Source of the DNA: Leptospirillum ferrooxidans C2-3
GTDB taxonomy: Bacteria; Nitrospirota; Leptospirillia; Leptospirillales; Leptospirillaceae
Assembly (NCBI RefSeq): GCF_000284315.1
Contig: NC_017094.1
Location: 527,486-591,485, forward strand
Reading direction: 5' to 3'
Length of the DNA stretch: 64,000 nucleotides
Positions 11,499 through 38,782 of the stretch are shown here, piece by piece. Positions within the stretch are counted from its first letter, which is position 1, and each line of letters opens with the position of its first letter. Below the pieces are notes generated by a model, which was given only the letters and a program-made list of their open reading frames with translations, did no database searches and was not told the origin of the DNA. Made by a program: the position numbers and the translations under genes.

Positions 11499-11712
11499 CG
11501 GCCTGGATTTCTGGGGAAACAAGTTCCGGGAAATTCAGACGCTTCTGTATCAGCGATGGAAGGACTGTTCGTTTCTGGGAATTCCGAATCTTCCTTCCTG
11601 GCCGGAAATCATGTCCTGTCCGGATCTTTCCGCCTTGCATGATCTCGAAAAACGCCTGGAAGGAGCTGGTGGAAAGGAAAAGAAGACCCGGAAAAAGAAG
11701 GAGGCGGCGTGA
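11488..11712 (+). CDS. Small hypothetical protein with basic tail
   Basis: 74 residues. The ATG at 11488 overlaps the end of the HD gene by 11 bases and its stop overlaps the GTG start of the nuclease. The C-terminus is strongly basic (KEKKTRKKKE). There is no signal or membrane segment. Operon position suggests a transfer-related job; no family recognised. Confidence 0.6.
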   Translation: MQLDGLDFWGNKFREIQTLLYQRWKDCSFLGIPNLPSWPEIMSCPDLSALHDLEKRLEGAGGKEKKTRKKKEAA

Positions 11713-12395
11713 GGTTTCTTTCGTCCTCCCGGATCACCGCCGGATTCTTGGTGCTTGTCATTCCGGGAATTCTTCTGGCGGGAGGGGCACAAGCGGGTGC
11801 CTGGCCCTTTCGCGGGTCCGAACATTTTTCTTCGTGTTCGAGACCTGTAACCTCCTCTCCAGAATCCCTTCTCGGAGAACATTACTCTCCGGAAGAGAAC
11901 CTCGAATCGATCGATGTGGACCTGATCGACCACGCCAGACGGTCGATTGAGATTGCCATGTATGCCTTCACGGATCGTCCGATCGCCGATGCGGTCATCC
12001 GGGCGTCCTCTCGCGGCGTCCACGTGTGGATTTACCGGGACGGCATTCAGATCAAAGACCGTGGTGACAAGTCGAGGCGCATTCTGTCCGCCTCCGGACA
12101 GAGCGGAGTCGTCCAGATCGAAGTGAAGAGGAATTCCTCAAGAAACATCATGCATTTGAAGGCGTATCTCATCGACGGGATGATCCTCCGGACCGGGTCG
12201 GCCAACTGGTCGCCCCCCGGAGAAGGCGCCTGGTGTTCCCGAGGAGAACGGCTTCACCGGGATCAGCAGGACAACAATCTTTTTATCACGAACGATCCCC
12301 GGGAGGTCCGGAAATTCGAATCGACGTTCCGGAGAATCTGGACACGGGAGACGAATCGTCCTTGGAATGAGAACTTGTCGAGAAGGAGATCTTGA
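11709..12395 (+). CDS. Secreted PLD-family nuclease (Nuc-like)
   Basis: 228 residues from a GTG at 11709. A signal peptide ends near AQAGA. The mature part has the phospholipase D nuclease fold: RRSIEIAMYAFTD at the front and one HxKxxxxD motif (HLKAYLID) followed by GSANWS. Proteins with a single HKD motif, such as Nuc of the IncN plasmid pKM101, dimerise to make one active site and are encoded in conjugation regions. Probably periplasmic. Role in transfer unproven. Confidence 0.82.
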   Translation: MRFLSSSRITAGFLVLVIPGILLAGGAQAGAWPFRGSEHFSSCSRPVTSSPESLLGEHYSPEENLESIDVDLIDHARRSIEIAMYAFTDRPIADAVIRASSRGVHVWIYRDGIQIKDRGDKSRRILSASGQSGVVQIEVKRNSSRNIMHLKAYLIDGMILRTGSANWSPPGEGAWCSRGERLHRDQQDNNLFITNDPREVRKFESTFRRIWTRETNRPWNENLSRRRS

Positions 12396-12967
12396 TGAAA
12401 CGAGAATCCGGTGGCTTTGTCCTCCCCGTCGCGGTCATGGTGGTTATTGTCCTCATGGCTTGGTTCTTTGTTTTTAAATCGTCAACGCCTCCTCCCAAAC
12501 CTCTTTTCCTTGCTCCGCCGGATCAAAAGGTCCCTCCCACCACCAAACCATCATATAAGCGTGCGGAGACGGAGTCGCCGATGGGCTGGAGAACTCTTTA
12601 CCGGGACAACTGGGAATTTCTGTGTCCCGTTCTCGGACACCAAGTTGTCGATCCGGAAGAAGCCTGCCGTCTGATTGCGGCTCCGGCCCGGCTCGGGCCG
12701 ATCGTCGTCCGAGATTCGTCGGTCAAGTATGACAAACCATTCACCGTGAAACGGAATCCATCGGTCCCATTGGTCAAATACAGCATCAAACATCCGGTGA
12801 TGAGTCTCCCGGAATACGTTGGCCCCCGGTTTTACCCGGAGCGAATGATGTGTGCAAACTCTCCCGGAAAATGGATTCCGACTCATCGTCCTGTGATCGA
12901 TCCGCAAGGAAGGCTGATCCGGTATGACCCGGAGCAGGTCCGGATCTTTTGCGGAGGAGGCAAGTGA
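12395..12967 (+). CDS. Membrane-anchored hypothetical transfer protein
   Basis: 190 residues from the ATG at 12395. One N-terminal transmembrane segment (residues 8-28) precedes a periplasmic domain with a few cysteines (LCPVLG, EEACRL, RMMCAN, IFCGG). The DsbC-like protein could act on these. It lies between the PLD nuclease and the IcmC/TraQ-like gene, overlapping both ends. It could be a diverged part of the IVB channel, but I do not recognise it. Confidence 0.65.
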   Translation: MKRESGGFVLPVAVMVVIVLMAWFFVFKSSTPPPKPLFLAPPDQKVPPTTKPSYKRAETESPMGWRTLYRDNWEFLCPVLGHQVVDPEEACRLIAAPARLGPIVVRDSSVKYDKPFTVKRNPSVPLVKYSIKHPVMSLPEYVGPRFYPERMMCANSPGKWIPTHRPVIDPQGRLIRYDPEQVRIFCGGGK

Positions 12968-13482
12968 GCGGACTAACGTCCACGGCCACATCCCTTCTCC
13001 AGCAGGTGGCAAACGACCTGCCCGCCTTCTGGAACCTCCTGATTGCGTTTGCCTCTCTGACGGGGTTTGTTCTCTGCGGGTACGGCCTGTATCGGGCGGT
13101 CGAAGAGCAGAAACGGGGAGAATCCATGATGGGTGCGGCCGGGATCTTCATGGTCGGGATCGGACTCGTCAACTTCATCTACTTCGTGAATTCCGCCACG
13201 ATGACCATCGGTTTTTCGACCGGGAATCTTTCCACATTTTCCTACACGGCATCCTCCTCCTCTGGAACTCCCGGATCTTCGGTTCCGTCCTTTGCCTTTG
13301 TGATCCTGAAGTTCTTCGGGTGGCTCGCGGCCTTTCGGGCCCTTCTCCTCTGGTCCGAATCCGCCCGGTCGGGATCTCCTCCCGGGACGGTCTGGCGGGG
13401 AACGACACACTTCGTGGCGGGAATTTTCCTGATCAACATCAACCAGTTTCTGGGAACGATGGGGAATTACATGGGTGGATAA
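12964..13482 (+). CDS. IcmC/DotE (TraQ)-like inner-membrane protein
   Basis: 172 residues from a GTG at 12964, after GGAGGAGGCAA. About four hydrophobic segments. The first part (NLLIAFASLTGFVLCGYGLYRAVEEQKRGE) and MMGAAGIFMVGIGLVNFI resemble IcmC/TraQ of Dot/Icm and IncI systems and also the smaller protein at 3244. It would sit in the inner membrane as part of the transfer complex. Assignment is by topology, motif recall and context. Confidence 0.6.
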   Translation: MSGLTSTATSLLQQVANDLPAFWNLLIAFASLTGFVLCGYGLYRAVEEQKRGESMMGAAGIFMVGIGLVNFIYFVNSATMTIGFSTGNLSTFSYTASSSSGTPGSSVPSFAFVILKFFGWLAAFRALLLWSESARSGSPPGTVWRGTTHFVAGIFLININQFLGTMGNYMGG

Positions 13483-15171: not shown

Positions 15172-15324
15172 GGGGGGATTCCTGCTTGCTCCGCTTGTCG
15201 CCTTTCCCTATCAGGACAAGAACACGCCGCCTCCCGAGGCGACCAAAAAAGGTCGCACGGGTCCCTGGCGTTTCCCGTTGGAACAGGGGACTCGGGGCGG
15301 TGCCCCAAACCCCCCAAAAGGACT

Positions 15325-15506
15325 TAACACAGCACGCACCCTCTCGGGGTGGGAGAAAATCCAGTGTGCGTGCCGTTTCCGGGCACTGGTCCGGTGCCTT
15401 GTCCCCTTCATTTCAAAAACTGTCTTTGAGGGGACAAAGGCCTTCCGGAACGAGGGGACAATGAGGGGCTGTCCCCTCAAAAAAGTGCTCCCATTCAGGG
15501 AGATAG
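15325..15506 (+). repeat. 182-bp perfect inverted repeat, left copy
   Basis: Identical over 182 bases to the reverse complement of 21657-21838. It contains nested inverted repeats (GCACGCAC with GTGCGTGC; CACCC with GGGTG; GGCAC with GTGCC) and several AGGGGACA motifs in both orientations. This density of short palindromes next to a relaxase gene is what an oriT region looks like, but no nic site was identified. Confidence 0.95.
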
Positions 15507-15541: not shown

Positions 15542-16009
15542 ATGGGTTACCAAAGGATGGATCTCCGAGTGTCGGATTCGACCATCTCGGCGATCAAAAA
15601 ACGGGCGTTTTCAGAAGGGAAATCGGCATCAAAAATTGTTAGGGAATTGATCGAGTCCTCTCTCGCGCGCACATCGGGATCCAATGAACTTGCCGTTCTC
15701 GGGGGTGGATCGGGAATGGATCTGGAGATGTTAAAAAAGGCGATTGGGGAGGAGCGGGATGAGCATGAAAAGACCCGATCGGAACTGGCCGCAATGGGGC
15801 TTTTGCCCGATTCCCAAAACGGATCAGGTCTATCCCCTCAAATGATCAAATTTCAGGTTGAAACTCTTACAAAAACATACGAACTGCTGAGGAAGATTTC
15901 CCTTCACCTTTCTCAGGAAAACACTAAAGAGCATGAGGATCGAGTCAAATACGCGGAGGCTATGGCGATGGAAACCGTGAAAAACCTGAACTTGGGAGAT
16001 GAAAAATGA
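15542..16009 (+). CDS. Ribbon-helix-helix relaxosome accessory protein
   Basis: 155 residues from the ATG at 15542. The N-terminal 45 residues are a ribbon-helix-helix DNA-binding unit (MDLRVSDSTISAIKKRAFSEGKSA, then KIVRELIESSL). The rest is helical and charged, suited to oligomerisation. Gene order (RHH protein, membrane protein, coupling ATPase, MobF relaxase) matches trwA-trwB-trwC of IncW plasmids, so it probably binds oriT and may repress its own promoter. It starts 35 bases after the 182-bp repeat. Confidence 0.75.
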   Translation: MGYQRMDLRVSDSTISAIKKRAFSEGKSASKIVRELIESSLARTSGSNELAVLGGGSGMDLEMLKKAIGEERDEHEKTRSELAAMGLLPDSQNGSGLSPQMIKFQVETLTKTYELLRKISLHLSQENTKEHEDRVKYAEAMAMETVKNLNLGDEK

Positions 16010-16413
16010 ACAATTTTCAGGGATTCGACGATCAGAAAAATGGATCGGAAATCGTTGCCGCTTTAGCCGGGAGTCTCTCCGGAATCGGAGCGTATCTGGG
16101 TGCGGAATGGGCGTGGTGGCATCTTGGATGGGGCCCATGGAACTGGTCAGTGAGCGCCGGCAGATCGGACACGATCCATGCCTACTGGCTCGCCTTCTTT
16201 GGACATTTGAATCCTTCCTACAAAGGTGATTTTGGAACATGGCTTGAATTCGAGATCTGGCTCAGGAGCCGCCATATGTATGACGCTTTCGTGGCTTCGT
16301 TCTGGGTTCCCCTGACTGTTTCGGTCATTACAGGAATACTGATTGGCTTTTGGATCTTCAGATCAATGAATAAAAAAGTGGCCCCCTTCATCCGCGGCGG
16401 GAGATTCAACTAA
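16006..16413 (+). CDS. Membrane anchor of coupling protein, separate gene
   Basis: 135 residues, ATGA overlap with the gene before. Two transmembrane segments (about residues 19-39 and 101-122) enclose a 60-residue periplasmic loop rich in Trp. It ends with a short cytoplasmic stretch, KKVAPFIRGGRFN, resembling the Arg-Gly segment found just before the ATPase domain of TrwB/TraD. The next gene is a coupling ATPase without its own membrane part. The simplest reading is that the usual N-terminal anchor of the coupling protein is encoded separately here. Confidence 0.6.
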   Translation: MNNFQGFDDQKNGSEIVAALAGSLSGIGAYLGAEWAWWHLGWGPWNWSVSAGRSDTIHAYWLAFFGHLNPSYKGDFGTWLEFEIWLRSRHMYDAFVASFWVPLTVSVITGILIGFWIFRSMNKKVAPFIRGGRFN

Positions 16414-16432
16414 AAATTCAGGAGGTTTTAAG

Positions 16433-17722
16433 ATGGGCTGGTTTGATGGAAAAAAAGAAGAAAAGGGTATCCCCCTGAGCTTGCCTGGTCTGACTTTCCC
16501 CATGGGCGCGGAACTTGAGCACATCCTGATCCCGGCCACGACCGGATCAGGAAAAAGCCAGCTGATCCACTATCTTTTGGACTCGATCCTCAAGGGCATC
16601 GCGGCTCGTCCCGAAAGTCAACGAGCGATCATCACAGACCTGAACGGACAGTTTGCCGAGAGCCGTAGTCACCCTCAGGACCATCTGGTGAATCCTTCCG
16701 ACAAGCGGAGTCTCAAGTGGAACCCTTTTCGGGAAATAAAAAACGAAATGGACTTCAAGCTTCTGTCCACGTCCGCGATCACGACGGACGGAGCGTCAGG
16801 AGAAGAAAAGAATTGGCGCCAGTTTGCCCAAACAATGCTGGAGTCAATCATGAAGGGTCTGGATAAAGAAGGGAATCCAAACCCTCAGCGCGTCCTCGAG
16901 TTGATCCGACCCTCTGATCCGGAACTCGTGCGGCAATACATCACTGGAACACCTGCCGAATCTCTTTTGAGCGGCCCGAATGAGCGTTTTTTCGGGTCCG
17001 TCATCGGGGTTCTCTCCAATGCCCTGTCCGCATGGGAATTTCTGGAACCCGATGGAGGGTTTTCAATCAGGGATTGGGTCTGGGAAGGGAAGGGGTGTCT
17101 CTTCCTGATCTATACCCCCGCTCAAATCGAAGCGATGCGTCCTCTTCTTGGATGTTGGCTCTCTTTGGCCATTCGGGAAACACTCTCTTTGCCGATCGAA
17201 GTGGACAAAAACGGTGTTCCGACTCGCCGGATCTGGTTTATCACGGACGAACTGGATTCTCTGGGAACGATTCACGGAATGGGAGAAGCGCTCTCTCAAG
17301 GGAGAAAAATGGGCCTGTCCGTTATCTCTGCCATTCAAACCCTTGCGCAGCTCCGGATCCGGTACGGGCCGGATGGAAGTGCGGCTCTCCTGGCGTGCTT
17401 TGTGAACAAGCTGATCATGAAGCAGGGTGATTTTGCCGATGCCAAACACTGGAGCGATTACCTGGGCCAGCAGGAGGTGGAAAGAATCGTGAGAAACGAG
17501 GGGGGATCGAAGGGGGGAAACGGTGGTGCCGGAGAGTCGTTCGGCAGACATGCTCAGAGGGAGATCCGCCAACTGGTCCTTCCTGCCGAATTGCAGGATC
17601 TTCCAAAATTCTGCGGGTATGCGCGCATCAGCGGCCAGTCTGGGGTCAGCAAATTCCGTTTTGAGCCCAGGGGATTGCCGAAGGTAGCGGAGCCGTTCAT
17701 TCCGAAACAGAAGAAATATTGA
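16433..17722 (+). CDS. Type IV coupling protein ATPase (TrwB/TraD-like)
   Basis: 429 residues; ATG at 16433 after CAGGAGGTTTTAAG. Walker A in IPATTGSGKSQL near residue 36, Walker B near RIWFITDELDSL (about residue 268), then EALSQGRKMGLSVISAIQT, typical of TrwB/TraD. This hexameric pump hands the relaxase-bound strand to the secretion channel. It lacks the N-terminal transmembrane region, which seems to be the gene just upstream. Its stop overlaps the relaxase start. Confidence 0.9.
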   Translation: MGWFDGKKEEKGIPLSLPGLTFPMGAELEHILIPATTGSGKSQLIHYLLDSILKGIAARPESQRAIITDLNGQFAESRSHPQDHLVNPSDKRSLKWNPFREIKNEMDFKLLSTSAITTDGASGEEKNWRQFAQTMLESIMKGLDKEGNPNPQRVLELIRPSDPELVRQYITGTPAESLLSGPNERFFGSVIGVLSNALSAWEFLEPDGGFSIRDWVWEGKGCLFLIYTPAQIEAMRPLLGCWLSLAIRETLSLPIEVDKNGVPTRRIWFITDELDSLGTIHGMGEALSQGRKMGLSVISAIQTLAQLRIRYGPDGSAALLACFVNKLIMKQGDFADAKHWSDYLGQQEVERIVRNEGGSKGGNGGAGESFGRHAQREIRQLVLPAELQDLPKFCGYARISGQSGVSKFRFEPRGLPKVAEPFIPKQKKY

Positions 17723-20700
17723 TGGCGCTCGGACGGAATATCTCCCCCGCCCAGGGGGAGACATACTACAGGAAAGATGATTACTACTTGGAGCGTGAAG
17801 GAGGAGATGACCACCGTCTCGAATGGGGAGGGAAGCTTGCCGTTGAACTGGATTTATCCGGGAAAGCCGGTGCCGAAGATTGGAAAAATGCCCTGAATGG
17901 ACATTTTCCCGGAGGGATCGAGATCGAGGGAGGATCGTTCAAGGATCCAAAAACTGGCGAAAGAGAGCGCCGGGCCGGAACGGACTTCGAATTTTCCGCT
18001 CCCAAGTCGATCAGCCTCCAGGCGCTTGTTCACGGAGATGAAGAACTTGTCCGGGCTCATCGGGAGGCTGTGGATGTTGCCATGGCGGCTCTTGAAAGGG
18101 AAGTTGGCGCCCGTCGGGGGCATGCCGGGAAAAATTGGGAAACTTCCGGAAAGGGGTTGATCGGGCGGGTCACACACATGACCAGCCGGGCCGGAGATCC
18201 GCAACTTCACGACCACGTGGTTTTTATGAACATCACGAAAAACTCCGATGGCAATTATCAGGCCATGACAAACGATCGGATGATGAACTATCAGCGGCTG
18301 GTTCAGGAGATCTATTTTGAGGAACTCGCCCATCGAATGGAATCGATGGGGTATGAACTGGAGAAGGGCAAGTATGGGGAACCGGAGATCAAAGGGTACA
18401 CCCGGGAGCACATCGAGCATTTTTCCAAAAGAACGTCCGATGTTGATGCCTATCTGATGAAGCATTTCGGGGAAACAAGGGAAACAGCGTCTCCGGCGCA
18501 TAAGAGGCTCGCCGCGGAACATTCTCGGGAGGCAAAAAAAGTCCGGGAGATGGAAGGACTTCAAAAAGAATGGGAGAGTCGGGCGCGAGATCTCGGTATG
18601 GAAAAAGTGCTTCCGGAAAAGGAAAGAAAACATCTCTCTCCTTCGAGTCGTCTGGAGATCGCCCGGGATTCCCTGAAATTTGCCATTGAACACCACACGG
18701 AGAGGGAATCTGCCGTCAAGGAGGGGGAGTTGATCAGGACGGCTTTGCAGGCCGGGCGCGGAAAAGTGACGAGTCGAGATATTGAAAAGGCGGTCGATGA
18801 GTCGAAAGCGGAGGGCCAGCTGATTCGGCAGAGTGGGGCCGGATCAAAGCAAAACCTGATGACCAGTCGGGAAGCTCTGGAGCGGGAAAAACGGATTCTC
18901 TCTTTTGAGAAGTCCGGCCGTCATGCAGTGGTCCCCGTCATGAACCCTCTTCAGGCGGAAAACGCCTTGAAAGCGATTCAGGAAAAAGAGGGATTGATAC
19001 TGAACCATGAGCAGAAATCGGCGGCCAGGATGATTCTGACGACCGATAATCGCTATTCGGGCATCAATGGCTATGCCGGCGTGGGAAAGACCACGATGCT
19101 GAAACCGGCGATCGAATCCCTTCAAAACGGCGTGGCGGTTTCTGCTTTGACAAATGCCGGATACCGGGTTATTGGTCTTGGCCCTCAACATTCAGCGGTC
19201 CATGCTTTGCGCGACGCGGGCATCATTGAGTCCCGAACGCTACAAAGCTGGCTTGCGGACCGACAGGCGGGAAAGAATCTGAACGACAAAACCGTTGTCG
19301 TAATTGATGAAGCTGGACTGACCAATGCCAGCGACCTCGAATCCGCCATGAAGCGGATCGAAAAGGCGGGAGCGAGAGCGGTCCTTGTGGGAGACATCAA
19401 GCAATACGAGAGTGTGGCCGCAGGTCCGGTGTTCCGGCTTCTGCAGGATAACGGAATGGAAACGGTCTACGTCAAGGAAATGCAGAGGCAGAAGAACGCT
19501 CCAGAGAATGTTCGGGAAGCGGCCAGGCTCTCTATCGAGTCCCCGGAGGCGGCACTTTCAAAGCTTGAGATCCGGGAAATCAGGAATTCCCAGGAGCGTT
19601 TCAAGGCTATCTCCGAAGCATATCTGAAATCGAAGGATCCGAAGGAAACTCTTTGTCTTACTGGAACGCACGATGCCCGGAAGGCCGTGAACAATCATGT
19701 TCGGGAGTCACTGGGACTGGCCGGATGCGGCAATGAGTTTACCCGCTATGAAGCCGGGGATTTTACGGAAGCGCAGAAGAAGCGGATCGATGCCTACGAG
19801 GTCGGTCAGGATATCCGGTTCGGAAAGGATTACCGGAGCGTGAAGGTCAAATCTGGCGAACTTGGCAAGGTTGTCGAAGTTGACAAGGAAACAGGGCAGG
19901 TCCTCCTGAAAATGGAGGATGGGCGGGAAGCGACCCTGACTCCCAGGGAAATGTCCGGAAAGGGCCACGAGATCGGACAGCTTGAGAAGATCGAACTATC
20001 GAAAGGGGACCGGATCCGGATCACCGGGAACGAACTCAAGAAAGAGGGGATTACCAACGGAATGAGAGGGGCGGTTCTCGAATCGAAGAATGGCATGCTA
20101 AAAATTCTCCTGGATAGCGGAAAGACCTTCGATCTGAAGCCGGGATCCCGTCCAGTCGAGATCGACCATGGATATGCACAGACAGGGCACTCTGCCCAGG
20201 GATTGGGGGCTCAGACCGTCATTCTGGATCTTCCATCGAGTTCACAGACTCTGAATCGGAGAAGCTTCTATACGAATCTGACCCGAACAAAAGACCAGGT
20301 CATCGCTTTTACTGACAACATGGAAAAGCTCACCGGAGCCGTTTCCCGGGAGAAAGACAAGACCATGGCCCTTGATGTGGAGAAGGAGGTTCAGGAGAAA
20401 AATCGGGAGAGAAAGACGAAGAACCTTCCCGACGAGCTGCGGTTCGGGGAGACTCCCGAACAAACGAAAGCCCGTTTCGAAAAGGGCGGAATTGAAATCG
20501 ATGACGTCGGCTTCTTCGGAAGGCCGGGAGAACAAGGAGAAAAAACTGAAATTGAAACGGGCGGAATCGCTCCGGTCGTCCCACCAGGTCAAGGGGAAAA
20601 GAAGATTCCGGGAGAAGAGAAGACGACAGAGATGAAGAAGGAGAAGAGAGAAGAGGAAATAATGTCGAAGGAACGGGAACGCTCCCGGGAGAAAGAGCGC

Positions 20701-20820
20701 GAGAAGACCGGAGAGCGGGCAGTAGAACTCCAGGAGAAACGGCTGGAAAAAGAGCAGGAGAAAAAGAAAGAGGCTCCCCGGATCGAGCGGCAGAGAGGTC
20801 GGGACGGGATGGAGTTTTAA
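17722..20820 (+). CDS. MobF relaxase-helicase (TrwC/TraI-like)
   Basis: 1032 residues from the ATG at 17722 (TGATG overlap). Relaxase domain first: tyrosine pairs at about 15-16 and 21-22 (ETYYRKDDYY), and the His triad at about 152, 163 and 165 (RVTHMTSR, DPQLHDHVV). A RecD-like helicase follows: Walker A NGYAGVGKTTM near 450, VVVIDEAGL near 530, then GYAQTGHSAQGLGAQ and FYTNLTRTKD. The last 150 residues are highly charged (Glu/Lys/Arg). It nicks oriT, stays bound to the 5' end, and unwinds the plasmid. MobF enzymes usually pair with VirB-type channels, so finding one with a Dot/Icm-type channel is notable. Confidence 0.95.
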   Translation: MALGRNISPAQGETYYRKDDYYLEREGGDDHRLEWGGKLAVELDLSGKAGAEDWKNALNGHFPGGIEIEGGSFKDPKTGERERRAGTDFEFSAPKSISLQALVHGDEELVRAHREAVDVAMAALEREVGARRGHAGKNWETSGKGLIGRVTHMTSRAGDPQLHDHVVFMNITKNSDGNYQAMTNDRMMNYQRLVQEIYFEELAHRMESMGYELEKGKYGEPEIKGYTREHIEHFSKRTSDVDAYLMKHFGETRETASPAHKRLAAEHSREAKKVREMEGLQKEWESRARDLGMEKVLPEKERKHLSPSSRLEIARDSLKFAIEHHTERESAVKEGELIRTALQAGRGKVTSRDIEKAVDESKAEGQLIRQSGAGSKQNLMTSREALEREKRILSFEKSGRHAVVPVMNPLQAENALKAIQEKEGLILNHEQKSAARMILTTDNRYSGINGYAGVGKTTMLKPAIESLQNGVAVSALTNAGYRVIGLGPQHSAVHALRDAGIIESRTLQSWLADRQAGKNLNDKTVVVIDEAGLTNASDLESAMKRIEKAGARAVLVGDIKQYESVAAGPVFRLLQDNGMETVYVKEMQRQKNAPENVREAARLSIESPEAALSKLEIREIRNSQERFKAISEAYLKSKDPKETLCLTGTHDARKAVNNHVRESLGLAGCGNEFTRYEAGDFTEAQKKRIDAYEVGQDIRFGKDYRSVKVKSGELGKVVEVDKETGQVLLKMEDGREATLTPREMSGKGHEIGQLEKIELSKGDRIRITGNELKKEGITNGMRGAVLESKNGMLKILLDSGKTFDLKPGSRPVEIDHGYAQTGHSAQGLGAQTVILDLPSSSQTLNRRSFYTNLTRTKDQVIAFTDNMEKLTGAVSREKDKTMALDVEKEVQEKNRERKTKNLPDELRFGETPEQTKARFEKGGIEIDDVGFFGRPGEQGEKTEIETGGIAPVVPPGQGEKKIPGEEKTTEMKKEKREEEIMSKERERSREKEREKTGERAVELQEKRLEKEQEKKKEAPRIERQRGRDGMEF

Positions 20821-21656: not shown

Positions 21657-21838
21657 CTATCTCCCTGAATGGGAGCACTTTTTTGAGGGGACAGCCCCTC
21701 ATTGTCCCCTCGTTCCGGAAGGCCTTTGTCCCCTCAAAGACAGTTTTTGAAATGAAGGGGACAAGGCACCGGACCAGTGCCCGGAAACGGCACGCACACT
21801 GGATTTTCTCCCACCCCGAGAGGGTGCGTGCTGTGTTA
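21657..21838 (-). repeat. 182-bp perfect inverted repeat, right copy
   Basis: Reverse complement is identical to 15325-15506. The two copies enclose the accessory, anchor, coupling and relaxase genes. Identity stops sharply at both ends, on the inner side after GATAG and on the outer side before TAACAC. Confidence 0.95.
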
Positions 21839-22055
21839 TGACCTTTTGAGGGGTTCGGGGAGAATCCCCGCTGCCTCTTTTCTGGACCGTCTCCTGGTCC
21901 GGGAAGAGAGGTTGCTTTCTCTCCTGGCCCTCTTCGGGGGGGGAAGTCGCCCTGAAGGCTCTTTCGCTGGCGGTTCTGTCAGACAGGAAAGGTGACCTTT
22001 CTCTTGCTTTCATTTTTCCAGCCTTTATCCATGTCGTGAAAGTCTTCAGGTGCCA

Positions 22056-22589: not shown

Positions 22590-24112
22590 CGCGAATCATG
22601 AAAATTGGGGTAGACTGAAAGGGCCGTTTCCCGGACGACGCCGGTTTTTTCTTGGCACTTCCAAGTCCGATAACCAGTCTGGCGCAGGAGCTTCCGGAAC
22701 CCCGAATTGTGCCCTTGAGCGCGTTGGTCAGAATCGTTGATCGCGAAGCTCCCCCGGAGAGGCGGCGATTCGAACTGTCATTCCAGCCGGGAGGAGTGCG
22801 ATGGAGCAAATTTTCGAACGATGCGCAGGACTGGTCGGCCTCATGATCCTGAAACACCGCTTCAACCAGTCGGATGAGGAGGTTGTTCAGGGGCTCCACG
22901 AGAACGTGGTGTGGATGGTTTTCTGTGGCGTTCCTCCGGAAGAGGCCCATTTTGTGGAGAGTTCCACGTTGTGCAAGTTCCGGAAACGACTGGGGCCGGA
23001 CGGAACGGAGAAGGTCGAGACGCTCATCCGGGAGCAACTCCGGAAGGACAAGCGGATCGCGCCTTCCATGCGGGTGGATACCACGGCGATGGAAAAACAC
23101 ATCGCCTACCCGACCGACGCGGGACTTCTTCAGAAAGGCCGGGTTCGTCTGACCCGCCTGATCAAGAAGATGGAGGCGGTGGGCGTTGCCGTTCCCAAGG
23201 GGCTGCGAAGCTTTGTCCGGGTGAGCCGGAAGACGGTCCTGAGCATGGCGAAGTTCGGCAAGGACAAAAGAGCGAATCGACAAGGGTGTGAAAAAGCTCC
23301 TCTCCTTTGCCCGACGGACCATGAACCGGGTTCCCGAAGCGCTCGGGAATGCCAGGAAGGCCGTGACGAAGGCCAGGAGAAAAAAAGACGGCGTGTTGCA
23401 GAAGACCCTGACCCGTCTGGTGGAGAAAGTCACGGAGGAGAGCCGGGTTCTGGAGCGGGTGATCACGCAGACCGTCAACAGGATCAAGGAACGACCTGTA
23501 GAGGACAAGCGGATCTACAGCACTCACGAGCCGCATGTCACCTGCATCACCAAGAACAAGGCGGGCAAGAGGCATGAATACGGGGTGAAGGTCTCCCTGT
23601 CGGTCGATGCCAACGGGTTCGTGGTGGCCCATCGGGAATATCCGGACAACCGGCATGACTCGACGACCCTGGGAGAGGCTCTGGAGGATTGGGTGGAGGC
23701 CACAGGATCCCTTCCGAAGAGGCTGGCGGCGGACCGGGAGCCGGAGATTCTGGAGCAGGTTCCCAAGGTGGCGATTCCCCGCAAGGGAAAGACCAAAGGT
23801 CCGAACGAACAGACCGGCTGGTTCAAGCGGTTGACCGCCCGACGGGCCGGTCTGGAAGCGATCATCAGCCACCTGAAGACTGATCACCGGATGAACCGCT
23901 CCCGGTACAAGGGATTGGCGGGGGATCATCTGAATGTCTCCTGGGCAGCGATCGCCTGGAATACGAAAAAATGGGTGGAGGGTTGCCGAACCTGAGGGGA
24001 AAGACAGGAAAAAATCCCCTCGATTCCATCAATCGTGAAAAAAGAATCCATGAAACCCCCTCCCATTTTAACCTGACCCCCGATTTTATAGGGGCAATTT
24101 TCAAGAACCGCG
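22590..24112 (+). mobile_element. Insertion sequence with frameshifted transposase
   Basis: Candidate terminal inverted repeats: 22590-22607 (CGCGAATCATGAAAATTG) and 24095-24112 reversed (CGCGGTTCTTGAAAATTG), 15 of 18 matching. They enclose one DDE-type transposase split by a frameshift. The element length of about 1.5 kb is ordinary. Exact ends and target duplications were not confirmed. Confidence 0.65.
22801..23995 (+). pseudogene. DDE transposase, interrupted by frameshift
   Basis: Two reading frames join into one transposase. The first (from 22801, MEQIFERCAGLVGL) runs through STLCKFRKRLGP and MRVDTTAMEKHI, where VDTT probably holds the first catalytic Asp. The second resumes before 23288 and carries HEYGVKVSLSVDANGFV, LAADREPE and LEAIISHLKTDHRMNRSRY, the region of the last catalytic Glu. 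The break is at the AAAA run near 23265-23268; with one A fewer, the frame reads on smoothly. It resembles IS5/IS1182-like enzymes. Probably inactive unless the shift is a sequencing error or is bypassed. Confidence 0.75.
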
Positions 24113-30096: not shown

Positions 30097-31137
30097 ATGC
30101 CTGAACCATCCATTTCTGCTAAGGAGGATCATTCCGATCCGCAAGCTATTGATGTGGGGATCGATGATGGATACGCCGCCGTCAAGGTCGCCTGGTACGA
30201 CCCGAGCGGGGCGATCCGGACCCTGTCCATTCCTTCCCTTACCCGTCAAGGATCCCTGGGAGTTGGGTCTTTTGGAGAGAACGGAACCGTTGGAGGGTAC
30301 GAAACGGATGGGATTGTTTACACCGTAGGGCCAGATATCGGCGGTTCCGAAACGAGAATTCCTGACTACAACCTGTCGAGAACTGCGCGGGTATTGGCTC
30401 ATCATGCCCTTGTTCAGGCCGGATTCGGCGGAAAAGCCGTCCGCATCGCCTCGGGACTCCCTCTCAACCGGTATTTCAATGGAGGAAAAAAAGACGAGGA
30501 AAGGGTTGAGCAAAAAGTCTGGAACTTTGCCCAGCCGGTTCGCCGACTGGATGGAGGACAACCGGCGAGAATCGTTGCCCACAAAGTATTTGCCCAGGGG
30601 TTGACGGCGGCTGTCGACTGGTTTGTCGAGGGGAAAAACCCCCGTTCGCACAAAGGAAAGATCGGAATCGTCGATATCGGCGGTCAGACCATCGATATTT
30701 CTGTGGTCTGGCTTGACCAGAAAGGAGAGTTGATGACGAACCGCGACAACCTGGTGACCGAGGATATCGGGGTGCTCGATGTCCACAAGATCCTGAAACG
30801 CCAAATCATGAGTATTCACAAGGTTGACCACGTTTCCTCCGAAGACCTGGACAGGGCTTTGACCACGGGAAGCATCTGGATCTGGACAAAGGATCACTCC
30901 GTCCAGGATGAAATTGCCGCGGCTGTCCGCTCGGTCGGAGAGCAGCTTGAAGCGCCGATCCTTTCCGCATTTGGAAAAGAAATATCGAGTTTGGAAAGCA
31001 TCCTTTTTGTCGGGGGTGGAAGCTACCTCTTTCGGGATCTGGTGTCGATGTTTCCCAACGCGGTCACCCCGCACCAGCCAGAATTCGCCAACGCCCGGGG
31101 TCTTCTCAAGGCCCTGTCCATGAGAAAGGAAGCTTGA
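30097..31137 (+). CDS. parM: ParM/StbA actin-like segregation ATPase
   Basis: 346 residues; ATG at 30097 after AAGAGGAGGACTCT. Actin-like fold: VGIDDGYAAVKVAW (phosphate 1), KIGIVDIGGQTIDISVVW (phosphate 2) and SILFVGGGSYLF (adenosine loop). The IASGLPLNRYF segment is typical of ParM/StbA. It would form filaments that push plasmid copies apart. Oddly, it is embedded between the IVB transfer genes and the pilus operon, with no clear centromere repeats just upstream. The following small gene is the likely adaptor. Confidence 0.88.
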   Translation: MPEPSISAKEDHSDPQAIDVGIDDGYAAVKVAWYDPSGAIRTLSIPSLTRQGSLGVGSFGENGTVGGYETDGIVYTVGPDIGGSETRIPDYNLSRTARVLAHHALVQAGFGGKAVRIASGLPLNRYFNGGKKDEERVEQKVWNFAQPVRRLDGGQPARIVAHKVFAQGLTAAVDWFVEGKNPRSHKGKIGIVDIGGQTIDISVVWLDQKGELMTNRDNLVTEDIGVLDVHKILKRQIMSIHKVDHVSSEDLDRALTTGSIWIWTKDHSVQDEIAAAVRSVGEQLEAPILSAFGKEISSLESILFVGGGSYLFRDLVSMFPNAVTPHQPEFANARGLLKALSMRKEA

Positions 31138-32029: not shown

Positions 32030-32676
32030 GAAGAATCGCCCCTGTATTTCTGGTGCTTGCTATCCTTCTTTCCGGGTGTATTCCGGAAAGGGATCTGAAT
32101 TTGTCGGATGTGTCCCCGCAAACATTCGAGTCCCTTCCCTATGAGGGCGGAGGGCTCCTGTGCCGGACGCCCGTCCCTGTCCCGGATGTCCGGGTCGTCT
32201 CCCGCACGGTTCATGCCATGGCGGGATCCGAAGGGCGAATCCGGGAGGCTGTCCTCCCTTCCGGAATGGCTTTTGGTGTCTGGACCTCTGCGGTTCGGGC
32301 CCGATCGATCAGAGATTACATTCGAAGCATCTCCCGCAGCCGGAAGGTTCGGGTCTCCGTCAGCCTGTCCCGGATCGACCGCGCGGTTCCTTATGTTTCG
32401 AGAACGTTTTTCGTGCGGACCCGACATGCGTTCATGGCCGCCCGCTGGAAGGAAGGAGACAGAATTTTGGCTGTGAGGGGATTCTTCATGCGTACTGGCC
32501 CCCATATTGTGCCGGTTTTTTCCATGGAAGAACGATCATTGGGCTGGTTTGCCTGTCGTACGGAGACACCGGGATTTTCCGGCGGGAGGATCTCTTTCGA
32601 TTCCTCCCGGGCGACCGTCAAAACCGGTACCGAAACCTTGAGAATCGATTGGGAGACAAAAGATGCGAAACGTTAA
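32026..32676 (+). CDS. Pilus-operon lipoprotein of unknown function
   Basis: 216 residues; ATG at 32026 overlaps the previous stop. Lipoprotein signal with lipobox LLSGC. The mature region is beta-rich with several Arg residues and one late Cys. It occupies the slot between pilL and the secretin, where R64 has pilM, but it does not look like PilM; a PilM-like gene lies at 40522 instead. Possibly an envelope helper of the secretin. Confidence 0.65.
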   Translation: MRRIAPVFLVLAILLSGCIPERDLNLSDVSPQTFESLPYEGGGLLCRTPVPVPDVRVVSRTVHAMAGSEGRIREAVLPSGMAFGVWTSAVRARSIRDYIRSISRSRKVRVSVSLSRIDRAVPYVSRTFFVRTRHAFMAARWKEGDRILAVRGFFMRTGPHIVPVFSMEERSLGWFACRTETPGFSGGRISFDSSRATVKTGTETLRIDWETKDAKR

Positions 32677-34483
32677 ACTGGAAACATGGGGTGCAATGAT
32701 TCTTTCCGCGGGGATCATCCTGTGCGCGGGATGTTCTTTCGACAAACACGTCGATATTTCCGCGACGAAGGACATCAACAAGGGGTTGAAAACGTTCAGT
32801 GACGCCAAGCCAAAACCTCCGGAAGACTTCGAGGTGAGCGATTCGGCGTGGTTTGCGGGATCTGAGGACCGGGTGCGGATTCGGCGGTCGGAGCATATTC
32901 GGCTTCATATCCGTCCGAAGCATCTTCCCGCGCTTTTTGAAAAGCGCGTTCTCCTGGTTTCCGAAAAGCCGATCGGCATTGCCGATATCACCAGCGAAAT
33001 CACGACCTCGACGGGACTTCTCGTGACCGTGACGACTCCCCGGAAAATGGGGATATCGGGCAATGTTTCGGGCATGGGTGGCGGTATGGGCATGCCGATG
33101 ATGGGAGGATCCTCCCCCGCCGGAGCACCGTCTGCTCCCTCCCTTCAAGCGGGAACATCTTCCGGGGAAACGTTTCTCAAGAAGAAGATCCGGGTGGACT
33201 GGGACGGTTCCCTCGAAGGACTCCTGGATTATACGGCCAGCCGGTTCGGGCTCTTCTGGACCTACCGGGACCATGTGGTCTCTTTCGGTCGCACGACCAC
33301 GAAAATCTTCCGGATCAACGCCGCTCCCGTCATGAATATCGTGTCGAATTCGATCTCGGATTCCGGTATGACGGGGCTTTCCAGCATCCTCATGAACCAG
33401 GGCGCCGCCGGTGGCATGGGAGGAGGGGCCGGTATGATGGGCGGGGGGATGACGGGAGGAATGGGTGGCTCCTCCATGATGGGTGGCGGTATGTCCGGGG
33501 GGATGACGGGAGGAATGGGAGGATCTTCCATGATGGGTGGGGGTATGGGCGGCGGGATGGGGGGAAGCGGACAGAATGTCTCCTCTTTTTCCATCTCCAC
33601 GGTCTGGAGCGAAATCTCCCAGAGCCTGAAATCGATTTTGGGAGGTCGGGGCAATTATTCCATCGCCCAGTCAGCGGGGACTGTTACGGTTACCACGACC
33701 CCCCGGATCATGGGAGAAATCGCCGAGTATGTTCACGATCTGAATAACTCCCTCTCCCGACATGTCTGGCTCAAGGTGGAGGTCCTGGACGTCAATTTGA
33801 CGGACCAGAACGCCAACAGCTTTAACCTGTCGGCCGCGCTTTCGGGACTCGCCAAGAGCGGATCGATTCTTACGACTGGCCAGCCGGGGGTCTTTTCACT
33901 CGCGGGAGCCAGTCCGATCACTACGACGACCATGACACTTCCAAACTCTTCCACGAACGCGGTCATTCATGCGCTTTCCTCTCTCGGCAAGACATCGGTG
34001 GCGACCCGCTCCTTCGTCACGACCTTGAACGACCAGGCCGTTCCTGTCCAGAACGTTCAGAATATTGGTTACCTGATGGAAAATCTGGCCGGAATCGCGG
34101 GAATCGGGCAATCCACATTCACGCAAAACATCCCGGGATCCGTCACCGTCGGGTTCACGATGACCCTGGTGCCCCATCTTCTGGACAACAAGGAAATGCT
34201 CCTTGGCGTTTCGATCGACGACACCAATCTGAACCAGATGCAGACCCTGACCTCCGGAGGAGGGTCGATCCAGCTCCCGAACACGTCCCAGAGATCGTTC
34301 ATGCAATGGGTCAAACTGACTTCCGGACAGACGGCGGTCATCGGTGGCTACGAGCAGACCCGCCGGGTCTTTCAGCAGAACGGTACCGGCACTCCGTCGA
34401 ACTTCTATCTTGGCGGTGGACAGAATTCCCAGATCGTCCGGGATGCGATCGTCATTCTGGTCACGCCGGTCGTGGGGGGGTAA
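32663..34483 (+). CDS. pilN: PilN outer-membrane secretin of thin pilus
   Basis: 606 residues; overlaps the end of the lipoprotein gene. Lipoprotein signal (ILCAGC). The N-terminal domains include a small N0-like unit (FEKRVLLVSEKPIGIADIT) and a Gly/Met stretch. The C-terminal secretin domain includes SRHVWLKVEVLDVNL, TSVATRSFVTTLNDQAVPVQ, PGSVTVGFTMTLVPHL and GQTAVIGGYEQ. It forms the pilus exit pore, as in R64 PilN and BfpB. Between residues 250 and 300 is a tandem Gly/Met-rich repeat. Confidence 0.9.
   Translation: MRNVKLETWGAMILSAGIILCAGCSFDKHVDISATKDINKGLKTFSDAKPKPPEDFEVSDSAWFAGSEDRVRIRRSEHIRLHIRPKHLPALFEKRVLLVSEKPIGIADITSEITTSTGLLVTVTTPRKMGISGNVSGMGGGMGMPMMGGSSPAGAPSAPSLQAGTSSGETFLKKKIRVDWDGSLEGLLDYTASRFGLFWTYRDHVVSFGRTTTKIFRINAAPVMNIVSNSISDSGMTGLSSILMNQGAAGGMGGGAGMMGGGMTGGMGGSSMMGGGMSGGMTGGMGGSSMMGGGMGGGMGGSGQNVSSFSISTVWSEISQSLKSILGGRGNYSIAQSAGTVTVTTTPRIMGEIAEYVHDLNNSLSRHVWLKVEVLDVNLTDQNANSFNLSAALSGLAKSGSILTTGQPGVFSLAGASPITTTTMTLPNSSTNAVIHALSSLGKTSVATRSFVTTLNDQAVPVQNVQNIGYLMENLAGIAGIGQSTFTQNIPGSVTVGFTMTLVPHLLDNKEMLLGVSIDDTNLNQMQTLTSGGGSIQLPNTSQRSFMQWVKLTSGQTAVIGGYEQTRRVFQQNGTGTPSNFYLGGGQNSQIVRDAIVILVTPVVGG
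33415..33575 (+). repeat. Gly/Met-coding tandem repeat in pilN
   Basis: Two near-identical blocks of about 60 bases coding GGMTGGMGGSSMMGGGM, followed by a shorter third piece. A related short patch lies near 33066. In-frame length change by slippage is possible. Confidence 0.8.
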
Positions 34484-34486
34484 CCA

Positions 34487-35899
34487 TTGGCCCAGGTCGT
34501 CCGGATCGGAAAGAAAAAGTATGCAGTCGGCCTCTCCTGGGGACCCCTCACGCCCGACCGGCCGCTCAGGCCACAGGCGATCGAGAAAACCCGCCACAGC
34601 AAAAACGATCTCTATGTGACCTCCGGAGACATCGAGCCGATGGTCGGCCACTGCGATCAGGCGAACGGTGTAAAAGCGGGGCTTCCTGTCCTGGCTCCGC
34701 TTGTTGCGGATGGGTGGCCTGCGAACACACTGATTGCGTTGGCTCCAGACGGACAGCCTGCAATCGGATTCCAGATTTTAAACGGAATCATCTACGACGA
34801 TGTGGTGGGGAGTGTCGAAGAAATCCGGACATGGTTCGACGGAATCGTCGGAGAGCACAAGTGGGACCATGTTTCCTCTCCATGGGATGCTTCTGGTGTC
34901 AAAACATCCGCCTTCGAAGATTCCATCCGGACAAGTGGAGTGAAACCTCCCAGGCTTCATTCGGTAAGAGAGGGGAGGGGGGCGGCGATCAAGGTCACCG
35001 TTTTGATCCTTCTCGTTCTGGCCGGCTTTGTCGTCGTTTCGAAGATCGTTCGGGATCGTCAGGAGATGGCCGCCCGCTTGGCGCTTCTTTCCCGGCATGT
35101 GGTCATTCATGTGACCCCGCCAGCCCGCATCGTACCTGTCGGAGCTTTTGTCGCGGGTTGTCTTTCGGCGGTCAACCGGATCCCCTCGGACGCGGTGGGA
35201 TGGACGGTCCAAAGCATCTCCTGTCGCCCGGACAAGATCTGGATCCTGTGGAAGAGATCCTCCGGATCGGGGACGATCCGGGATCTCGAAAGGGCTCTTT
35301 CCTCCCGGGTCAAACTCGTCGGAAAGAACAGGGCCAAGACCGGAATTTCCCTGTCTGTTCCGGAATACGAAATTCCTGTCGGGAGACTTCCTGATCTCGA
35401 GGAGGAAAAGAAAGATCTTGCCTCTGTACTGGAATATTACAATCTCGACTATCAAGCGGCGGGTGATTCGTTTCTTCCGGGGTTTTCCGGAGGGAGTGGT
35501 GCGGGATTTTCGGTCAACCTTCCCGATATTCCCGATGACAGACTTTTGTCAGCCCTGGGATCGGTCAACGGCCTTTCCGTCCGCTCCCTTGATTGGGCCG
35601 GAAAATCGCAGTGGATTTTAAAAGGAGAATTAAAACATGCGCCGATCATTTTGGTTCACGACCGTTCTGATGGTCGCTTTGGGAGGGGAACTTCTGGTGA
35701 GAGTGGCTCCGGTCCAGGCGGGAAACACGAATCTTCTCCCCCCTTCGGAAAATCAGGGAGGAGTTCTGTCGGGGAGCGTCAATTCGGCTCCGTTTCCGGA
35801 AACCTCGCCCCCAGGGAGTCTTCCGGCCCAATCGAAAAAACAAAGGGACAGTATGAGGGAACGGCCCTCCCTTCCGTCCGTCTCCCCGGGGACCGATGA
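34487..35899 (+). CDS. pilO: PilO pilus assembly protein
   Basis: 470 residues from a TTG at 34487. The N-terminal cytoplasmic domain starts KKYAVGLSWGPLTP, with later GLPVLAPLVADGWPAN. A transmembrane helix lies near residues 168-188 (VTVLILLVLAGFVVVSKIV), followed by a periplasmic domain. This is the plan of R64 PilO, an inner-membrane platform protein. The reading frame runs 263 bases into pilP; the last 87 residues are Gly/Ser rich and may be read-through past a lost stop. Confidence 0.8.
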   Translation: MAQVVRIGKKKYAVGLSWGPLTPDRPLRPQAIEKTRHSKNDLYVTSGDIEPMVGHCDQANGVKAGLPVLAPLVADGWPANTLIALAPDGQPAIGFQILNGIIYDDVVGSVEEIRTWFDGIVGEHKWDHVSSPWDASGVKTSAFEDSIRTSGVKPPRLHSVREGRGAAIKVTVLILLVLAGFVVVSKIVRDRQEMAARLALLSRHVVIHVTPPARIVPVGAFVAGCLSAVNRIPSDAVGWTVQSISCRPDKIWILWKRSSGSGTIRDLERALSSRVKLVGKNRAKTGISLSVPEYEIPVGRLPDLEEEKKDLASVLEYYNLDYQAAGDSFLPGFSGGSGAGFSVNLPDIPDDRLLSALGSVNGLSVRSLDWAGKSQWILKGELKHAPIILVHDRSDGRFGRGTSGESGSGPGGKHESSPPFGKSGRSSVGERQFGSVSGNLAPRESSGPIEKTKGQYEGTALPSVRLPGDR

Positions 35900-36341
35900 A
35901 AGTTCCCCGGGGACCTACGGCAGTCATCGTTCTCTGGGCTCCCTTTTCGAACTCAAACGGCAGGAGACCCTTCTGAAAAGGGAAATCGCCATCAAAAAAC
36001 TACAGAAGCAGCTCTCGGGGCATAGCGCGAAAAAAACGCTCGACACGGGTACACAAGGATCTCCCATGACGCTTCTTGCGGCGGGTATCGACGGAAATCG
36101 CTATGCCGTTCTGGCCTGGCCCGATGGAAGAAAAATCCGGGTTCGGGAGGGAGAAAAACTTCCGGATGGCACCCGAGTTATCAGGATAGACGGCTCCGGA
36201 GTTTCCGTTCAAAAACGCGGATCGATAGTGACCTATCCGTACGGAGAAGCGTCCGGATCTCGCCAGGGTGGGGGAATCCCCCAGTTTTCCGGATTCTCTC
36301 CTCCTCCCCCTCCGTACCAGAGGACAGGAGGGCATCCGTGA
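35637..36341 (+). CDS. pilP: PilP pilus assembly protein
   Basis: 234 residues; ATG at 35637 after AAAAGGAGAATTAAAAC. Signal peptide ends near VQAG. A coiled stretch (LKRQETLLKREIAIKKLQKQL) precedes a C-terminal domain with YAVLAWPDGRKIRVREGEKLPDGTRVIRI, typical of R64 PilP. It probably bridges PilO and the secretin in the periplasm. Its first third overlaps pilO in another frame; its strong ribosome site and signal peptide show this frame is real. Confidence 0.82.
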   Translation: MRRSFWFTTVLMVALGGELLVRVAPVQAGNTNLLPPSENQGGVLSGSVNSAPFPETSPPGSLPAQSKKQRDSMRERPSLPSVSPGTDESSPGTYGSHRSLGSLFELKRQETLLKREIAIKKLQKQLSGHSAKKTLDTGTQGSPMTLLAAGIDGNRYAVLAWPDGRKIRVREGEKLPDGTRVIRIDGSGVSVQKRGSIVTYPYGEASGSRQGGGIPQFSGFSPPPPPYQRTGGHP

Positions 36342-38782
36342 AAGTTTTCGAACTTCCTCACCACCTCCCGGTCGAGGTGGTTTCCGAACCGGACGGGGAC
36401 CTCCCGGCTCCCTCATCGCTTTTGGAGGGACTTGTGGGAATGGGAAACGGCCAGCTCTTCGCTCTGAAAGAGTTCAAGGGGAGGGCGGATGTCGATGCCT
36501 ACATCGCCCGATTCTCCGAGTATCTGGAAACATCCGGGAAGGGAGGGGAGCGTATGGTTTTCTGGGTCGAGAAACCCATTTTTGCGAATGTTCTTTCGAA
36601 GCTCAGGGAGCTTCCTGGCCCTTCTTCACCGAGTTCCAATTTATTGCCAGACCCCTCCAACATGGAACAGTCTCCGGAGACATCTCTTCCTGATGAGGTT
36701 TTTTCAGAAAAAGACGGGATTCCCATCCCCGAATCTCTTTCCAAAAAAGTGGTTGCAATGGAGGATGGTCAGATCGTAGCATCGGAAGACCTTCGCGGGA
36801 GTTCGGATTTCGCCCTTTTTGTAGGACAAACTTCCATGAGGATGGAGGCCAGGGGAACCATTGGACAATTTCGGATTTCCTATGTTCCAAACAGAAAAAT
36901 CCGGGATCTTCTTGCGAAGAGGCTTCGAGAGTGTGAGGAGGAAGACTATTCCCATCTTTTGGGCGAGATGGGGCTTTTGAGCATCAATACGGAGGAAGAA
37001 GCCCGCAAGCCAGCGGAAAGTCTTGAGAAGGAGACCTCTAAAAAATATTCCGGAGAAAAATGTGCTCCAGGGATTCCCCTGATAAAGGATTCTGCGGGAG
37101 GTTCCCCCTCCAGGTCTCTGGCAACCGATGTTGGAAAGGGAATTTCGGAGGTTTTGGAAGAAAAAAAAGAATCCATCAACTCCAGGGAGGGGGACACTGA
37201 ATGCCTTTCGGTCCCGTCCGGAGGCACCATTCCGGATTTTCGGGCACCGGAAGATATCGCTTCCATGGTTCTTCTCTTTCTGGACGGCCGTTTCTATGTG
37301 TCCAGGGAGCACAAGACAAACCAGCATGTGAACTATTATTGTCGGCATTTCGTTCCGGAATTGTGGCCAAAGATTTTTGGCGACAAACCAGTTCCGAAGC
37401 CGCAGTATGTGCCATACGAGCACCTGCGGAAAATCCGTCTGGAAAACTTGCCCTCCGAGTCTGTCGCAGACGGATACAAGGCAGAGGGGGACGAGGCCCG
37501 GAAAATCATGGAGATCATTCGGGACGCCATCGCCAGGAAAGCCTCCGATATCCATCTCCGAATCGAACGGGACCGGACGAGAATCCTTTTAAGGATCCAC
37601 GGCTGGCTCAAGCCCGTACAGACACTGACCCACGACGAAGGAGAACGTCTCGCCCGGATTGTCTACAACACGATGCTCGATTCCTCCGGGCGGGATAATA
37701 TGTTTTCCGACAAGAAACCCCAGGATGGACAGTTTCGGCAGGATTACCTTCCCCGGGGCACCTTCAATATCCGGGAGTTCCATGCCCCGACGGGAGGGAC
37801 GGGCCTCGGGACTATCACGATGGTCTTGAGGCTCCAGTACGGCTCAGGAACCGCTACTGCGTCGGCCCAGGATATCGATACTCTGGGGTACGGGGCGGAT
37901 CACTTGGCTCAATTAAGGTATCTCATGGGATTGTCCTATGGAATCGTCCTTTTTTCCGGGCCCATGGGATCCGGAAAATCCACCTCCATGGCTTCGGTTC
38001 TCTCGATCGTTCTGTCGATGAATCCGCTCGAGGAGGGGAGGGGCCTCCATCTTGCGACGCTCGAAGATCCTCCGGAGTACGTGATTCCGACAGCCAGCCA
38101 GATTGCTGTCCCTGGTGGCCTCTTTTCCGAGGTTCTTGGGCGCATCATGCGTTTTGATGCGAATCTTTTGATGATCGGCGAAATACGGGACGAATCGACG
38201 GCCGAAAAGGCGGTCGAGGGGGCCATGAGCGGACATGTGGTCTATTCGACCGTGCATGCGAACGATGTTCTTTCCATTCCCCGGCGTCTGGATGGATTAA
38301 AAGTCCGACGGGATCTCCTGTGCGACCCGACGATTTTTCGCGGCATGATTTGCCAGCGACTCGTCCCCCTTCTTTGTCCGGATTGCAAACTTTCATGGGA
38401 GAAAGCGGAAAAAGCTGGAATCTTGCGACCGGATCTTTTAAAACGCCTGGAAGATGTCTCTGTGGATTCGGAAGAGGCTTTTTTTCACCGTGCCGGCGGA
38501 TGTGACACCTGCAATGGGCAGGGAATCACCGGGAGGACAATCGTTGCGGAAATTCTCATTCCCGATCAGGAAATTCTGGATCTTGTCGCAGGGGGACGCA
38601 TGACGGACGCCTGGCGTTACTTCTCGGAAAAACTCGAAGGTCGTACGATGATGGATCATGCGCTTGAAAAAATCCGGATGGGGGCCGTTGATCCGCGCGA
38701 TGTCGAGGCCCGTCTTGGATGGATCCACAAAGGATCTCTCGACAGCCGGACGATCCGGGAAATTATCGGAGGGCTTTCATGA
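36338..38782 (+). CDS. pilQ: PilQ pilus assembly ATPase with three N-terminal modules
   Basis: 814 residues from a GTG at 36338. The C-terminal 420 residues are a GspE/PilB-type ATPase: KASDIHLRIERDRTRILLR, Walker A SGPMGSGKSTS near residue 542, EDPPEYVI, LLMIGEIRDEST, HVVYSTVHAN, and a CPDCK/CDTC zinc site. R64 PilQ is about 500 residues, so some 300 are extra. The extra part has three related units, each with a GQ/GR-h-x-h segment and a FWVEK/YVPN/YVPY segment (near residues 30, 145 and 310). It powers pilus extension. Confidence 0.9.
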   Translation: MKVFELPHHLPVEVVSEPDGDLPAPSSLLEGLVGMGNGQLFALKEFKGRADVDAYIARFSEYLETSGKGGERMVFWVEKPIFANVLSKLRELPGPSSPSSNLLPDPSNMEQSPETSLPDEVFSEKDGIPIPESLSKKVVAMEDGQIVASEDLRGSSDFALFVGQTSMRMEARGTIGQFRISYVPNRKIRDLLAKRLRECEEEDYSHLLGEMGLLSINTEEEARKPAESLEKETSKKYSGEKCAPGIPLIKDSAGGSPSRSLATDVGKGISEVLEEKKESINSREGDTECLSVPSGGTIPDFRAPEDIASMVLLFLDGRFYVSREHKTNQHVNYYCRHFVPELWPKIFGDKPVPKPQYVPYEHLRKIRLENLPSESVADGYKAEGDEARKIMEIIRDAIARKASDIHLRIERDRTRILLRIHGWLKPVQTLTHDEGERLARIVYNTMLDSSGRDNMFSDKKPQDGQFRQDYLPRGTFNIREFHAPTGGTGLGTITMVLRLQYGSGTATASAQDIDTLGYGADHLAQLRYLMGLSYGIVLFSGPMGSGKSTSMASVLSIVLSMNPLEEGRGLHLATLEDPPEYVIPTASQIAVPGGLFSEVLGRIMRFDANLLMIGEIRDESTAEKAVEGAMSGHVVYSTVHANDVLSIPRRLDGLKVRRDLLCDPTIFRGMICQRLVPLLCPDCKLSWEKAEKAGILRPDLLKRLEDVSVDSEEAFFHRAGGCDTCNGQGITGRTIVAEILIPDQEILDLVAGGRMTDAWRYFSEKLEGRTMMDHALEKIRMGAVDPRDVEARLGWIHKGSLDSRTIREIIGGLS

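Follow-up and report, generated by a model that had tools for sequence, protein, structure and literature searches.

The ATPase of a coupling protein feeds DNA into the transfer channel, and it normally forms one protein together with its own membrane anchor. A recognised subfamily of coupling proteins (T4CPs) lacks the transmembrane domain (TMD) and is paired with a small membrane protein; its studied case is TraJ/TraI of pIP501 (PMC7434980, PMC12857230, PMC13037476). For this Gram-positive plasmid, whose TraJ belongs to the VirD4 family, a separately encoded anchor (TraI) has already been proposed. TrwB and CloDF13 MobB are non-functional without the membrane domain, yet a chimera of the TraJ(pKM101) membrane domain and the TrwB motor works, and TMDs are exchangeable between TrwB relatives (PMC7431656). 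Because TrwB and MobB lose function without the TMD, a lone TrwB motor is expected to need a supplied anchor.

Gene layout and surrounding element

The window, the whole 64,000-nt stretch of DNA that was analysed, corresponds to positions 527,486-591,485 of a complete 2,559,538-bp chromosome. It contains two neighbouring ORFs, 16006-16413 and 16433-17722, whose products of 135 aa and 429 aa were designated P0001 and P0002. The locus was compared with a MAG contig from a different genus of the same family (JAMCWM010000003.1, locus L053, designated G019; 150x coverage by contig name). The features of the module and the transfer genes around it were as follows.

15542-16009, + strand: TrwA-like ribbon-helix-helix accessory protein, 155 aa; first gene of the operon, its stop overlapping the anchor start (ATGA)
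16006-16413, + strand: candidate anchor half P0001, 135 aa, two hydrophobic helices (from the ORF, hydropathy and a G019 homologue of 56% identity)
16390-16407, + strand: IRGGRF codons, encoding the linker motif of the TrwB family at the very C-terminal end of the anchor half (from motif comparison)
16420-16425, + strand: AGGAGG, Shine-Dalgarno sequence serving the ATPase gene, whose ATG follows 7 nt later
16433-17722, + strand: motor half P0002, 429 aa, ATPase of the TrwB family lacking a transmembrane domain (TrwB_AAD_bind, E=1.1e-85)
16535-16558, + strand: Walker A of the motor half (ATTGSGKS)
17722-20820, + strand: MOBF (TrwC-like) relaxase-helicase (MobF, E=3.3e-67; TrwC relaxase, E=5.7e-73)
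6774: DotH/IcmK
8041: DotG-like TrbI domain
27322: DotD
27881: DotC/TraI
28708: DotB-type ATPase
32663-42027: PilN-V thin pilus (IncI-type) with shufflon-type adhesin

The ORFs of the anchor and the ATPase were separated by a gap of 19 nt and lay in different frames, and a second stop in the frame of the anchor fell within this spacer. The relaxase probably starts at the ATG at 17722, which overlaps the ATPase stop (TGATG); the ORF list gave a TTG at 17719. The TrwA-like protein shared 37% identity with the protein at the equivalent position in G019, and its comparison with Pfam gave a sub-threshold match to DUF6364 and nothing else. The operon order trwA-anchor-ATPase-trwC equalled the trwA-trwB-trwC order of R388-type plasmids. 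With a MOBF relaxase directly downstream of P0002 and a ribbon-helix-helix-like gene upstream of the pair, the TrwB-type association was present.

On sequence grounds, the pair is located in an integrated conjugative element with IncI/Dot-type transfer genes, and the relaxase and transfer genes downstream of it were intact. A DotO/TraU homologue was found at 609 kb of the genome. With a distant query, no DotA/TraY homologue turned up in this genome, and G019 yielded a weak one. A PF12696 search, made without a DotL-positive control, detected no DotL-like protein in the genome. The only other detectable T4CP was TrwB/TraD-like and fused (688 aa); its gene lies at 362 kb, about 180 kb away, near an integrase and an ArdC-like gene. 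The preliminary description had regarded a split TrwB-type protein as a departure from the Dot/Icm systems, in which the coupling protein is DotL. This remark was partly right, in that Dot/IncI-type transfer genes are present and the second T4CP of the genome is also TrwB/TraD-like, although fused.

The trwA-anchor-ATPase-trwC module is flanked by a 226-nt inverted repeat (15281-15506 and 21657-21882; 94% complementary), of which only two copies exist genome-wide. The upstream copy lies where an oriT is expected; the repeat could be a duplicated oriT or control region, or could permit inversion of the module. Just 3' of the relaxase module, a transposase-like gene (22801-23995) is apparently broken into two overlapping frames. 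A ParM-like actin segregation gene (30097-31137) in this apparently chromosomal element suggests a plasmid origin or a plasmid phase. The shufflon-type PilV adhesin gene occupies 41005-42027 and is part of the IncI-type thin-pilus set.

The motor half, the proposed anchor half and the linker

The TrwB_AAD_bind profile (PF10412) was covered by P0002 from position 2 to 386 of 387, and crystallised R388 TrwBdeltaN70 (1e9r/1gl6) aligned from residue 9 (E=6e-50). Walker A and Walker B were intact. Walker A begins after the first 34 residues, at residue 35. No membrane segment was found in P0002, with no 19-residue window reaching a mean hydropathy above 1.0. It had been proposed that the ATPase at 16433 starts almost at its nucleotide-binding domain, and these data agree. 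P0002 is a complete TrwB motor domain that lacks the N-terminal transmembrane domain on the same polypeptide, and the missing domain is apparently supplied by the upstream ORF.

Hydrophobic segments of P0001 were located at residues ~13-34 and ~90-122, with a stretch of ~60 residues between them; the first helix was weakly hydrophobic (maximum ~1.35). P0001 ends in ...FIRGGRFN and its G019 homologue in ...PVRGARID. The two membrane helices and the linker-like end that had been described for the preceding gene were thus recovered. Searches of P0001 against Pfam, NCBIfam, PHROG and the PDB gave no convincing family match, and no homologues were found in plasmids. AlphaFold models made with two sequences were of low confidence (pLDDT 59), and Foldseek with the low-confidence P0001 model gave no structural match.

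A profile was built from fused TrwB membrane domains only, cut at the linker motif, and each query was compared with 500 shuffles of itself. P0001 scored 8.0 bits (equalled by 2 of 500 shuffles) and the G019 small protein 8.9 bits (equalled by 1 of 500). Undoubted divergent TrwB membrane domains scored 5.1 (R388-like), 4.6 (X. euvesicatoria) and -0.4 bits (X. citri) with the same profile. Profile-profile alignment of the P0001 family with TrwB membrane domains by hhalign gave E=3.5e-4, and the alignment ended at the motif. With a profile of longer N-terminal halves that included the linker, P0001 scored 3-5 bits, which is inside the shuffle range and not significant. The sequences make homology of P0001 to the TrwB membrane domain likely, without proving it.

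Of 36 fused TrwB proteins, 31 had the linker motif [I/L/V]RGxx[L/I/V/F], more broadly [hydrophobic]-R/K-G-x-x-[hydrophobic], upstream of Walker A. Its distance to Walker A in the motif-bearing fused proteins was 39-48 residues, with one exception at 56. When both halves were summed, the same distance was 41 residues in the window and 40 in G019. Among the 2379 ORF ends of the DNA examined, the split pair included, 14 had the motif within their last 12 residues. P0001 has the layout of a TrwB-family TMD: two helices, then an RGxx(hydrophobic) motif whose distance from Walker A is that of the linker. Because the motif ends the small protein and the summed distance matches an intact linker, the cut lies inside the linker.

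Conservation of the split and direction of change

The same two-gene layout was found in G019. There, a small protein of 132 aa (56% identity to P0001) lies directly upstream of an ATPase of 427 aa (61% identity to P0002). The neighbourhood was conserved as well: a DotH homologue (66%), a phospholipase-D-like protein (76%) and the TrwA-like protein (37%) precede the pair, which is followed by a MOBF relaxase. The ATPase gene is preceded by a strong Shine-Dalgarno sequence in both genomes (CAGGAGG in the window, AAGGAGG in G019), in line with the separate ribosome site claimed earlier. Nei-Gojobori dN/dS between the window and G019 was 0.29/1.71 (~0.17) for the anchor and 0.37/1.87 (~0.20) for the ATPase, with dS near saturation. 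With both ratios at about 0.17-0.20, both ORFs are under purifying selection and kept as proteins.

Relatives were sought by peptide-pattern scans over viral and genome contigs, and the sole close relative was the G019 locus; single-protein scans of the viral and genome collections and further viral scans gave no close relatives. Only two independent split loci, those of the window and of G019, are known. About 30 other TrwB-family proteins examined were fused. Nearly all strong PF10412 proteins of this phylum were fused, with open frames mostly of ~560-650 aa. The plasmid TrwBs examined were fused, as were the T4CPs next to six relaxases among the most similar MOBF relaxases (6/6).

Three candidates for further splits were rejected. 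In L009 (G126, 1015-2823), from another Nitrospirota family, the otherwise fused gene is interrupted by an in-frame stop near the linker, and another genome has a near-identical intact fused copy (G311/L011). In G195, the apparent break lies elsewhere, and other members of that genus are fused. L042 (G005, ~11700-13220), from another genus of the family, is a degraded remnant of the same ATPase-relaxase module. The protein of L030 (G078) is fused but diverged, and the motif is absent from its usual place.

In a maximum-likelihood tree of motor domains, the two split ATPases grouped together (100/100), apart from most other Nitrospirota proteins. The split pair grouped with fused plasmid TrwBs of Xanthomonas, Vibrio and Pseudomonas (97/92; 99/97 when R388-type TrwB was added). 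The tree was rooted at its midpoint, which falls on a long branch, but the fission reading stands with any root that lies outside the group of plasmid TrwBs. Because the split pair is nested among fused plasmid TrwBs, the split is read as a fission and not as the ancestral state. The simplest reading of these sequences is that the ancestor was a fused TrwB, probably obtained from a plasmid of proteobacterial type, and that it split before the two elements diverged. The proposal that the two proteins are halves of one ancestral protein is upheld by the conserved split, the nesting in the tree, the motif end with the linker length and a weak profile similarity, the anchor homology being likely and unproven.

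Assembly model, rival explanations and relation to known systems

The pair is considered, with good probability, to be a TrwB-type coupling protein gene that was fissioned inside the membrane-to-motor linker, giving a detached anchor and a complete motor that associate non-covalently. The fission would have occurred in trwB, within a trwA-trwB-trwC module. P0001 would be the detached two-helix membrane domain, with a cytoplasmic tail that ends in the RGxxF linker motif, and P0002 the whole DNA-pumping motor, an ATPase of the hexameric TrwB type. As products of a single operon, they would most likely bind each other at the inner membrane without a covalent bond, the helices and tail of the anchor touching the membrane-proximal face of the motor, and a normal coupling protein would result. 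The MOBF relaxase-DNA complex would then pass via the TrwA-like protein to the split coupling protein and on to the IncI/Dot-type channel. We infer the physical association, its stoichiometry and the contribution to transfer. Several results weigh against the model: the family searches with P0001 gave no convincing match, its score with linker-containing N-terminal halves was not significant, its structure model was of low confidence and matched nothing, its first helix is weakly hydrophobic, and the split loci number only two.

An unlikely alternative is that the ATPase has lost its membrane domain and acts as a soluble or peripheral protein, and that the small protein is an unrelated accessory, such as a helper like R27 TraJ or an exclusion protein. 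P0001 could not be identified by family searches, loss of the TMD is tolerated by some T4CPs, and R27-type TraG needs a neighbouring TraJ despite having its own membrane domain (PMC7434980), all of which fit an accessory role. However, P0001 terminates exactly in the TrwB linker motif, the summed linker has the fused length, the gene lies between trwA and trwC where the TrwB N-terminus lies, and mutants of TrwB and MobB that lack the TMD do not function (PMC7431656).

Decay of the coupling protein into a pseudogene within an inactive island is very improbable. The remnant in G005 shows that degradation occurs in the family, and the stop of G126, at a similar place, stands beside its intact copy in G311. 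Against decay, the low dN/dS of both ORFs was maintained over ~40% amino acid divergence, the Walker motifs and the downstream genes are intact, and the ribosome sites are strong. The chance is slighter still that the split is a sequencing frameshift, for which the preliminary description had singled out 16400-16440, or that the halves are joined by programmed frameshifting. Ahead of the ATPase ATG, the two frames do overlap openly (450-aa open frame), but the second stop in the anchor frame falls inside the spacer and the ATPase has its own AGGAGG. The independent assembly of G019 is split alike, with the ATPase frame at -1 relative to the anchor where that of the window is at +1; because the offset is opposite in the two genomes, a sequencing error or a conserved programmed frameshift was excluded.

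In the literature searched, of which coverage was incomplete, no earlier report of a split TrwB-family coupling protein was found. The loss of function of TMD-less TrwB, set against the working TMD swaps, frames the question of covalent joining. A naturally split TrwB, from the best-studied family, together with the fused forms for comparison, makes the need for covalent joining of membrane domain and motor testable.

Compared with TrwB of R388 and its relatives (PF10412), the locus shares the whole motor, Walker A and B, the trwA-trwB-trwC order, the MOBF relaxase and the linker motif and length; the membrane domain is a separate gene here, whereas it is fused in R388-type plasmids. The IncI/Dot-Icm systems, with TrbC/DotL as coupling proteins, share the DotC, DotD, DotB, DotG, DotH and DotO homologues of the element, but the coupling protein here is of TrwB type and split. 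In R27, as here, a small membrane protein is encoded alongside the coupling protein (PMC7434980), but TraG retains its own membrane domain and R27 TraJ has ~200 aa and up to five helices.

The preliminary description had missed the precedent of pIP501, with its TMD-less T4CP and separate anchor. For comparison with pIP501, the plasmid pRE25 was used, which we take to be a related plasmid and a suitable stand-in. In pRE25, TraI (143 aa, two helices) lies directly upstream of TraJ (551 aa). Both systems have a two-helix protein adjacent to and upstream of a TMD-less T4CP, and in both the break precedes the motor, within the linker. TraJ is a member of the VirD4/T4SS-DNA_transf family (PF02534, E=9e-100) in a Gram-positive MOBQ system, whereas P0002 belongs to PF10412 and is associated with MOBF. 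BLASTP of TraI against P0001 gave no similarity, and the two ATPases, TraJ and P0002, matched with E=0.017. Because similarity between TraI and P0001 is absent and the ATPase families, hosts, relaxases and channels differ, the two splits are apparently independent. The locus is thus, apparently, an analogous fission in the TrwB family and in a Gram-negative-type system, and a second case of the same gene fission after pIP501. We give an even chance to the fuller reading, in which a TrwB-family/MOBF protein underwent an independent fission at a linker equivalent to that of the VirD4-family protein of pIP501, giving a two-subunit anchor-plus-motor coupling protein whose detachable anchor may let a TrwB motor serve a Dot/IncI channel.
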